A DNA stretch of 35,541 nucleotides from a virus. Below the pieces are notes generated by a model. That model did no database searches and had not been told where the DNA came from. It saw nothing but the letters and a program-made list of their open reading frames with translations. The position numbers and the translations under genes were made by a program. The number at the start of each line of letters is the position of its first letter. Within the stretch, counting starts at the first letter, position 1. Positions 4,440 through 12,000 of this stretch are shown piece by piece. Location of the stretch: the IMG/VR virus record IMGVR_UViG_3300005470_000012, positions 1-35,541 of that record; one strand, given 5' to 3'.

Positions 4440-4981
4440 TGAGTACATTTTGGCTAGAAACTAACACAGAAGAAGAGAATATCGGCAATTTTGCTATGAC
4501 TGTAGAGATGGAGCCTATTCCCTCTAAAACACTATGCTTAGCTTTTATAGAAGAGGCGAAGTGGGACAGCTATGAAGAAGAAGAGTATATATCTTTGAGA
4601 TGGAAAGTATTACAACCGAGTGATTATAAAAACAGAGTAATTTTCCAAAAAATTAAAGTTTATGATAAAGACAGCAAAAAGTCCGAAAAGGCTAAAAAAA
4701 TGCTTATGGCTATTGATTTTAATGCAAAGGGCGGCCTTGCAAAGAGCGGTAAAGTTCCTACAACTGAAATATTACAAGGCAAATTATGTAATAAACCTAT
4801 GAACATTATGGTAATGATGTGGGCCATGGAAGATCAAATTACGGGCGAAACTCGCAAAGGAAACTGGATTAGTGCAGTCTCTCCAAAGGGCGATAATGTA
4901 CCTGAAAGAGTTGTTAAGGTAGAGAGAACAGAAGTGCCGATGATGGATGAAGATGACGACGACGCGGAGCTAATGTTTTAG
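4439..4981 (+). CDS. Single-strand DNA-binding-like protein (DUF669-like) with acidic C-terminal tip
   Basis: This encodes 180 residues. The body has the DUF669-like pattern: an N-terminal strand region, then EEEYISLRWKVLQP...NRVIFQKIKVY, then a C-terminal block with GKLCNKPMNIMV. The end is a run of acidic residues closing in a hydrophobic tip (MMDEDDDDAELMF), which is the hallmark used by SSB proteins to recruit partners. Its position right behind the Sak4-like gene matches known Sak4-SSB pairs. I infer a role in covering single strands during replication and recombination. OB-fold membership is not proven from motifs alone. Confidence 0.75.
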   Translation: MSTFWLETNTEEENIGNFAMTVEMEPIPSKTLCLAFIEEAKWDSYEEEEYISLRWKVLQPSDYKNRVIFQKIKVYDKDSKKSEKAKKMLMAIDFNAKGGLAKSGKVPTTEILQGKLCNKPMNIMVMMWAMEDQITGETRKGNWISAVSPKGDNVPERVVKVERTEVPMMDEDDDDAELMF

Positions 4982-7658: not shown

Positions 7659-7966
7659 GCTTTGTAAATTGGTTTAGGAGTAATTATCCTGAGGCACTTA
7701 TTTTTGCAATACCAAACGGAGAGCTTAGAGCTATAAGTGTAGCGAACAGATTAAAAGCTGAGGGCGTAGTTAGCGGTATACCTGATCTTTGTATATTATT
7801 AGAAGAAAAAACAATCTGGATTGAAATGAAAAAAGCGAAGGGCGGACGTGTATCCAAGGTGCAAAAAGAGATACATACTAAAATGCAAAGCCTAAAACAT
7901 GAAGTTTATGTTTGCAATGGATTTGAGGAGGCTAAAGCATTAATGCTTAGTATCGCCTCCAAATAA
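7628..7966 (+). CDS. VRR-NUC domain nuclease
   Basis: This encodes 112 residues, a stand-alone VRR-NUC protein of usual phage length. Seen motifs are IPNGE (28-32), SGIPDL with D53, WIEMKKAKGG with E66 and K68, and SKVQ with Q79, i.e. the PD-(D/E)XK core of this family. Members cut branched DNA such as Holliday junctions or flaps. The start at 7628 has SD AAAGAGG and lies inside the end of the helicase gene, a translational overlap. A hairpin follows 11 bases after the stop. Confidence 0.9.
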   Translation: MRDTEHIHQVSFVNWFRSNYPEALIFAIPNGELRAISVANRLKAEGVVSGIPDLCILLEEKTIWIEMKKAKGGRVSKVQKEIHTKMQSLKHEVYVCNGFEEAKALMLSIASK

Positions 7967-7976
7967 ACCCGCCAAA

Positions 7977-8004
7977 AAGAGCTTGTAGTTTTTGCAAGTC
8001 TCTT
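7977..8004. terminator. Hairpin between convergent VRR-NUC and RHH genes
   Basis: AAGAGCTTG (7977..7985) can pair with CAAGTCTCTT (7995..8004) with one bulged base. It lies between two convergent genes and may end transcription in both directions. There is no strong T-run on either side, so strength is doubtful. Confidence 0.4.
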
Positions 8005-8034
8005 ATGCTGTTTGATAAAATAACGCCCTTGTAT

Positions 8035-8208
8035 CTACTTCTTAATTCCCATTTCATTATTTTTCCTTACAGCTCTTTTAGCTTTGTTTATGCTTGCTTC
8101 TAAAATAAAGCTAGATAAAGATACGCCTTGCTGTTCTGCTGCTTCTCTTATTAACTCTTTGTCCTCATCTTTGATTCTTATTTGAAGTAATTTATCTTTT
8201 ACTTTCAT
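8035..8208 (-). CDS. Small ribbon-helix-helix type protein, lone leftward gene in the early arm
   Basis: This short ORF encodes 57 residues, beginning MKVKDKLLQIRIKDEDKELI. The pattern is a short strand with alternating residues (LLQIRI), helix, turn (QQGVSLSSF) and second helix, the classic CopG/Arc or DUF1778-like ribbon-helix-helix fold that binds DNA as a dimer. A consensus sigma70 promoter (8236..8264) stands in front of it. No second gene follows on its strand, so a toxin-antitoxin pair is not supported. It is the only minus-strand gene inside the rightward early arm, so it may be expressed separately, for example as a repressor or maintenance regulator. Function is inferred from fold only. 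Confidence 0.7.
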   Translation of the reverse strand: MKVKDKLLQIRIKDEDKELIREAAEQQGVSLSSFILEASINKAKRAVRKNNEMGIKK

Positions 8209-8235
8209 TTTACACCTTTTTAAATAAACATAGGA

Positions 8236-8264
8236 ATTATAACATTATTAGATTTGTTTGTCAA
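8236..8264 (-). promoter_or_regulatory. Consensus sigma70 promoter of the RHH gene
   Basis: On the minus strand TTGACA (8264..8259) and TATAAT (8241..8236) are separated by exactly 17 bases; both hexamers are perfect. The predicted start of transcription is about 8229, some 20 bases before the ATG at 8208. The hexamer ATTTGT (plus strand) occurs in the spacer (8252..8257) and just upstream of the -35 box (8268..8273), possible operator half sites. Confidence 0.8.
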
Positions 8265-8295
8265 TACATTTGTAATTAATAATACTTTAAGTTTT

Positions 8296-8478
8296 GCTCT
8301 GGTAAACTGCTCTTATCGGTTTGAAAAAACCAAGTTTATTAACTTACCAAAAATCCTTAAAGGTAGAGTTTGCAAGGCTTCTCTATAAAAAAGAAATGCA
8401 AAAGATTTACAAGAGCCGATCAATAATTAATCTTAGTATTAGTTATGCACATCTATTCACTGCAGAGTGCCGGTTCTT
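8296..8478 (+). ncRNA. Candidate structured RNA with two mutually exclusive folds
   Basis: No ORF fits this stretch. Fold A: 8296..8306 pairs with 8406..8416 (10 Watson-Crick pairs, one G-A mismatch), enclosing hairpins 8318..8331 (GGTTT-GAAA-AAACC), 8332..8345 (AAGTT-TATT-AACTT) and 8369..8402 (TTTGCA with TGCAAA plus an inner TTCT/AGAA). Fold B: 8411..8418 pairs with 8471..8478 (AAGAGCCG with CGGTTCTT, one G-U), closing a three-way junction with stems 8424..8445 and 8447..8470. Bases 8411..8416 are needed by both folds. It sits just before the gene at 8516, so it may be a switch-like leader or a free RNA. AT-rich DNA folds easily, so this remains a candidate. A weak promoter (TTGTCA 8258, TAATAC 8280) precedes it. 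Confidence 0.45.
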
Positions 8479-8479
8479 A

Positions 8480-8494
8480 TAAGTTTTTGACTTA
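8480..8494 (+). terminator. Small hairpin upstream of the 8516 gene
   Basis: TAAGT-TTTTG-ACTTA is a 5-bp stem followed by ATTT. It stands between the candidate structured RNA and the SD of the next gene. It is too weak to call a terminator by itself; it might be part of a switch. Confidence 0.25.
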
Positions 8495-8515
8495 ATTTAA
8501 AAAAAGGATGAAAAG

Positions 8516-8752
8516 ATGGATATAGATGAAAAAGCAGCGATGCGAGAAGATATGTTAATGGATCAAAGGCACGAATGGATTATGAGAAACGATATAGAGT
8601 ATTTTTGCGAGCACACGCTTGAAAACTTATATATCACGCCTGAAAAAACAAAGGGCTTGTTTTTATTTGATGTGGTGAACGAGATAAGAAAACATTGTGA
8701 TAGATACGAGCAAGATTTTAATGAGTTTTTAGATTATTTAAAGGAGGTGTGA
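8516..8752 (+). CDS. Small acidic protein of unknown function
   Basis: This encodes 78 residues with an AAAAGGATG-type SD. It is acidic and helical, with no membrane segment, no cysteine pair (single C48 and C63 regions) and no motif I know. It is the first gene after the foldable segment at 8296..8494, so its expression may depend on that RNA. An unusually strong SD for the next micro-ORF lies in its last codons. Confidence 0.6.
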   Translation: MDIDEKAAMREDMLMDQRHEWIMRNDIEYFCEHTLENLYITPEKTKGLFLFDVVNEIRKHCDRYEQDFNEFLDYLKEV

Positions 8753-8753
8753 G

Positions 8754-8813
8754 ATGAAATTACTAGATAAATTTGAAGAGTGGTGCGAAAAAATGGCTAA
8801 GAGGTGGTTTTGA
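8754..8813 (+). CDS. 19-residue micro-ORF with strong SD
   Basis: MKLLDKFEEWCEKMAKRWF is encoded between two genes. AAGGAGG ends 6 bases before its ATG, the best SD in the early arm. Its stop overlaps the next start (TGATG). The peptide would be an amphipathic helix with aromatic and lysine residues. It may be a real small protein or a leader whose translation opens the start of the next gene. No relative is recognised. Confidence 0.5.
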   Translation: MKLLDKFEEWCEKMAKRWF

Positions 8814-9106
8814 TGAAAACTGAAGAGAAATTCCTTGACTGCGATATAAGAGATTTGCCCGCTAGTTTTGTTGAGAAAGAGCTAAAGAGCAATAAGTACG
8901 ACAGACTGATGATAGGCAAAGACAAAAACAGCTGTATAGTTGATGTTTATGACGTGCTAAAAGCTTTTGAGGTTACTAATCCAGCGATGCAACATTTAAT
9001 CAAAAAAGCGTTATGCGTCGGAATTCGTGGACATAAGGATGCAAGTGAGGACTTGCAAGATATAATAGACTCTGCGATAAGAGCTAAAGAATTAGAAGAA
9101 AATTAA
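8813..9106 (+). CDS. Conserved phage small protein with DVYDVLKAF...IKKAL...RGHKD pattern
   Basis: This encodes 97 residues from the ATG at 8813. A GTG at 8804 is possible but less likely because the TGATG overlap couples the ATG to the micro-ORF. The block VDVYDVLKAFEVTNPAMQHL followed by IKKALCVGIRGHKDASEDL is one I recall from many phage early proteins of unknown function; that recollection is not checked here. The C-terminal helix is charged. The role is unknown; the early position suggests takeover or DNA metabolism. Confidence 0.65.
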   Translation: MKTEEKFLDCDIRDLPASFVEKELKSNKYDRLMIGKDKNSCIVDVYDVLKAFEVTNPAMQHLIKKALCVGIRGHKDASEDLQDIIDSAIRAKELEEN

Positions 9107-11759: not shown

Positions 11760-12000
11760 GATAGATCTAAAAGTAAAAATTGATAAAGATTCTTTTGAAT
11801 TAATACAAGAAGCTTTATTGGAAAACGGTGTCTATTGGGACAGCTCTGGCAATATAAAAAAAGAATATTCTGAAAGCTTTTTTTGCCTATACTATAGAGC
11901 AGAAATAAATGCTTTGCAATATGGGATGTATAAGTATAATTTTGAAAGCGATGCGGCTAAAGAAGTTGATGTAGATACTTTTTTAAAAAGGATTGTTTGA
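11752..12000 (+). CDS. Small protein of unknown function
   Basis: This encodes 82 residues. A strong purine-rich SD (GGGGAGAGG) stands just before the ATG, inside the end of the previous gene. The C-terminal part is DAAKEVDVDTFLKRIV. No motif is recognised. Its stop overlaps the next start (TGATG). Confidence 0.55.
   Translation: MSKIDLKVKIDKDSFELIQEALLENGVYWDSSGNIKKEYSESFFCLYYRAEINALQYGMYKYNFESDAAKEVDVDTFLKRIV

Follow-up and report, generated by a model that had tools for sequence, protein, structure and literature searches.

The region around positions 8296-8478 of the window, the 35.5-kb phage record in IMG/VR that was analysed here, is part of a non-coding 5′ leader (about 8292-8515) of a phage operon whose first gene encodes a 78-aa protein. 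Our preferred reading, which we hold tentatively, is that it could be a modular, cis-acting leader of the antitermination type whose 3′ junction shields the downstream RNA or is processed, rather than a two-state switch. The 78-aa gene was found on only two other contigs: L002 (IMGVR_UViG_3300035039_000043; 83% protein identity) and L013 (76% protein identity; contig JAPHSW010000214.1 of a MAG that carries the label Gammaproteobacteria). The leader family, which is absent from Rfam, has three known members. The features to which we refer are as follows.

8035-8208, minus strand: ribbon-helix-helix regulator of 57 aa, TacA1/RHH_1-like (Pfam TacA1, E 1e-10)
8236-8264, minus strand: divergent sigma70 promoter of the ribbon-helix-helix gene, TTGACA-17-TATAAT, matching the consensus at 12/12 positions, with TG ahead of the -10 box
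8258-8286, plus strand: candidate promoter of the leader, TTGTCA-17-AATACT, matching the consensus at 9/12 positions
8292-8332, plus strand: 5′ module in common with L013 7818-7858 (37/41 identical)
8308-8315, plus strand: boxA-like TGCTCTTA; L013 has TGCTCCTA at this place
8318-8331, plus strand: boxB-like hairpin GGUUU-GAAA-AAACC, identical in L013, with a pair probability of 0.93-1.0 at all transcript lengths tested
8352-8357, plus strand: AUCCUU, the predicted partner of the Shine-Dalgarno sequence AAGGAU (8504-8509) in the fold of the full window leader, a pairing not seen in L002
8402-8487, plus strand: predicted three-way junction, with a closing stem (8402-8418/8471-8487, one mismatch) and two inner hairpins
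8501-8512, plus strand: Shine-Dalgarno region AAAAAGGATGAA of the 78-aa gene, identical ahead of this gene in L002 and L013
8516-8752, plus strand: 78-aa gene, first in the operon

A preliminary description of this DNA, made from the letters alone, placed the segment between a divergently oriented regulator gene and a small-gene early operon, and the gene map agrees on the arrangement: a plus-strand run of small genes extends from 8516, headed by that of the 78-aa protein. The leader transcript is expected to start near 8292, as judged from the candidate promoter. The divergent regulator is different in each phage. In the window it is a ribbon-helix-helix protein (Pfam); judged by eye, its counterpart in L002, another small protein, resembles a ribbon-helix-helix, and that in L013 a helix-turn-helix. 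The 78-aa protein has no match in Pfam or NCBIfam, and its predicted fold is all-helical, at low confidence (pLDDT 72). The statement that the segment holds no ORF needs to be amended, as short ORFs at 8254-8388 and 8321-8482 cross it, but the underlying judgement survives: coding is unlikely because a 2-nt indel relative to L002 disrupts every reading frame while the flanking DNA is still conserved. We also considered these overlapping ORFs as Ash/Icd-like proteins and set the idea aside, with no match in Pfam, PHROG or tblastn. Directly after the 78-aa gene, at 8754-8813, lies a 19-aa micro-ORF, MKLLDKFEEWCEKMAKRWF, which is kept in L002 and L013 as a 17-aa form, MLEKFEEWCEKMA(E/K)RWL. Further along, positions 8930-9090, within a 97-aa gene, have 72-74% DNA identity to uncharacterised Klebsiella and Citrobacter phage genes.

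Rfam searches of the window and its relatives, at the gathering score and at E 10, returned nothing of note, and no tRNA or tmRNA was detected in the window or L002; the segment, as had been supposed, matches neither a known riboswitch nor a tRNA. Collections of phages and plasmids, searched at both the DNA and the protein level, yielded no relative of the leader or of the 78-aa gene. Pattern scans of viral contigs with GTTATGCACATCTATTCAC and with the GGCGAGAGCC pattern returned L002 only, and a scan with ATTTACAAGAGCCGAT returned L002 and 19 others, none of which is matched by the junction model. The single match to CTGCTCYTATCGGTTTGA in viral contigs (L017) was dismissed as due to chance, and another contig, L003, proved to be a spurious relative of the 78-aa protein. 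A NinB alignment search added one 4-kb contig, with the match close to its end. Among genomes related to the MAG that contains L013, 24 from its order and 369 from its class hold no further copy.

Compared by sequence, the three leaders are mosaics of exchangeable modules: a 5′ part with a boxA-like site and a GNRA hairpin, a middle GNRA tandem present in the relatives, and a 3′ stem-loop adjoining the Shine-Dalgarno site. What the window has in common with L002 runs from 8402 to the gene start, with nothing alike immediately upstream, and the 5′ module is the part that the window has in common with L013. The middle module, GGCGAGAGCC..TAAATGAC..GGGG, is common to L002 and L013 and absent from the window. 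It consists of tandem GNRA hairpins, an arrangement that was found in 1/1000 shuffles for each leader, and one of its hairpins carries two compensatory changes between L002 and L013 while keeping a GNRA-type loop in both; these changes provide modest evidence, drawn from two sequences only. The window has one GNRA hairpin, which does not stand out by the same count (109/1000 shuffles). At the 3′ end, the window and L002 agree in 94/107 columns from the junction through to the Shine-Dalgarno site and in 57/78 third codon positions within the 78-aa gene; the former region is thus the more conserved (Fisher p 0.013; p 0.003 with gap columns left out). L002 has, in addition, two long near-perfect hairpins between its middle module and its junction (4766-4880), absent in the window and L013, and its leader reaches a folding z-score of -4.0.

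The 5′ module has possibly a nut-site layout that has not been reported before, with a boxA-like octamer and a GNRA hairpin at 8308-8331, right downstream of the predicted promoter. BoxA is the binding site of NusB and S10, and boxB that of N (PMC4807359); the loops of boxB are of a GNRA-like type (PMC12550061). The window octamer matches lambda boxA, CGCTCTTA, at 7/8 positions and is largely free of pairing in the fold of the full leader, but it departs from the longer consensus of the rRNA type, which in gammaproteobacteria is GYTCTTTAANA (PMC5725501). As in the lambda nut site of the pL leader before N, and in P22 nutL, the octamer is followed by a small GNRA-type hairpin, and the pair comes soon after an operon promoter, ahead of the first gene and beside a divergent regulator. 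The geometry differs, with a 2-nt spacing and a 4-nt loop in the window as opposed to 8-9 nt and a 5-nt loop in lambda. When applied to lambda 34-40 kb, our scan for boxA plus hairpin recovered both nut sites and nothing else, and on 16 kb of P22 it recovered nutL and two further sites but missed nutR. In its strict form, it finds only the site at 8308-8331 in the window and only the corresponding one in L013. Such a pair occurs in 28/4000 shuffled leaders, a figure that flatters the motif because it was noticed by reading, after the fact; about one is expected per shuffled 35.5 kb. The predicted transcript of L002 has no boxA, and the small ORFs of the window, L002 and L013 include no convincing candidate for an N-like arginine-rich protein. 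Because an N protein with its arginine-rich motif was not found, we do not file the leader as a member of the lambda-type nut family. The HK022 put RNA is likewise structured and lies just after an early promoter, where it forms two long stem-loops side by side within about 70 nt (PMC9378689); such a pair is not seen in the fold of the window leader.

The compact three-way junction of the preliminary description, with a closing stem reaching 8471-8478, holds as a prediction. In the full leader, the closing stem (8402-8409 with 8480-8487 and 8411-8418 with 8471-8478) has pair probabilities of 0.69-1.0, and the junction folded alone has an energy of -20.0 kcal/mol and a z-score of -3.47, with 2/200 shuffles equally good. 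In a genome-wide scan of 2630 windows of the same length, its fold strength ranks about 50th. Checked against shuffled controls, as had been suggested, the folding energy of the entire 8290-8500 (211 nt) does not go beyond chance (z -1.59; 11/200 shuffles equally good), and 8290-8420 alone has a z-score of -0.80. A model of the junction, R1, has strong-score matches only in the window and L002, where the predicted pairs fit the two sequences in 95% of cells, as against 38-50% when the structure is slid along them. The sequence of the predicted junction is conserved in this one relative, but base-pair changes are not: no compensatory change separates the window from L002. A simpler AU-rich stem takes the place of the junction in L013.

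If the preferred reading is right, the boxA and hairpin would act like a lambda nut site, through which NusB/S10 and an RNA-binding factor would be loaded onto RNA polymerase; the loaded polymerase would then read through downstream terminators. The 3′ junction might either shield the first cistron at its 5′ end or undergo processing there, as the structured leader ahead of lambda N does. The antitermination mechanism is tentative because an N-like protein was not found and boxA is missing from L002. Should it be correct, nut-type control of phage operons would extend beyond the lambdoids, with another spacing and no recognisable N, and the leader could be tested by moving it into reporter strains.

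The preliminary description had proposed a new cis-acting leader or a phage small RNA, working as a switch in which one strand is required by two folds. A cis-acting leader without an Rfam match is what we find, and both folds are indeed predicted, one replacing the other: 8406-8416 can pair with 8296-8306 instead of forming its strand of the junction, and this long-range stem has a probability of about 0.8-0.98 in transcripts ending at 8420-8470 and is fully replaced once the transcript reaches 8482. The switch would consist of the move of 8406-8416 from 8296-8306 to 8471-8483 during transcription, controlling the operon, for example, via the pairing of 8352-8357 with the Shine-Dalgarno site; the predictions have this site base-paired in the free fold and open in part once the long-range stem is imposed. 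The competition itself is no more than chance would give. Complementarity like that of 8291-8306 with 8406-8421 is equalled in 43% of shuffled pairs, and when the upstream part was shuffled, 23/200 sequences paired with the same strand equally well. In L002, which retains the junction, the natural upstream sequence pairs with the strand worse than most shuffles do (92/120 at least as good). The long-range stem is absent from L002 and L013, the latter being altered in both arms, and forcing it in the window yields a fold that is 10.8 kcal/mol worse. No terminator-like site was found in window 7900-8800, and no ligand-binding family matches. The switch function is unsupported because the competing stem does no better than chance, neither relative keeps it and a terminator is absent, and the segment thus lacks what would mark it as a riboswitch. 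An on/off platform at the Shine-Dalgarno site has no comparative support either, because the pairing with 8352-8357 is absent in L002; the site in L013 is predicted to be paired, but with a different sequence. We therefore regard a cis-acting switch as very improbable. In AT-rich DNA, two competing folds can look striking and yet be no more than chance.

There are three further explanations. The junction might be only an RNA-processing or mRNA-stability hairpin, e.g. an RNase III site, with an accidental boxA and no antitermination. This would suit a closing stem of 16-17 pairs that adjoins the Shine-Dalgarno site and is conserved in L002, and the AU-rich stem that L013 has at that position, but it leaves the conserved 5′ module unexplained, and we think it unlikely. 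That the segment has no function at the RNA level, being AT-rich intergenic DNA with a chance fold and similarities due to recent shared descent or to DNA conservation (an operator or promoter), is a more doubtful proposition. It draws on the z-score of the whole segment, the rank of the junction among genomic windows, the small number of relatives and the missing compensatory changes in the junction; it is countered by conservation in excess of that at third codon positions and by the two compensatory changes in the GNRA hairpin of the sister leaders. P1 C4 and P4 CI are antisense RNAs that are cut from a leader, pair with targets in their own transcript and silence the operon. The junction resembles them in its topology, a long closing stem with two hairpins, and in lying downstream of the promoter but ahead of the first gene. 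The Rfam C4 model (RF01695) scores 68.8 bits on P1 and 74.9 bits on P4 but matches none of the window, L002 and L013 even at E 10. Unlike C4, the window junction is AT-rich and has no identified target pairing: the complementarity of its a′/b′ segments to targets was neither significant nor conserved across phages, although the known P1 seeds were also non-significant. Excision of the junction as a C4/CI-like silencer of its own operon is improbable in our view.

Beyond the preferred reading of the window leader, we can envisage, with rather little confidence, a new family of leader RNAs in phages with uncultivated hosts, having promoter-proximal GNRA hairpins, an exchangeable middle and a 3′ junction ahead of the Shine-Dalgarno site, preceding more than one gene, and acting on polymerase or on RNA processing without an N-like protein. 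A leader before more than one gene is seen in L013, which has a second, stronger one.

This second leader of L013 (11685-11945) is much more strongly structured (286 nt, z -6.27, with zero shuffles as good). It has its own TGT-TATAAT promoter, precedes an 83-aa gene at 11951 and has no Rfam match; its 3′ closing stem is a weak match to the junction model (E 0.014 in L013, 0.2 over all loci). Elsewhere in the window, an AT-rich intergenic region ahead of the replication operon (561-1036) holds the two arms of a long inverted repeat, at about 699-716 and 765-790, and positions 622-702 have one of the best fold z-scores in the genome.
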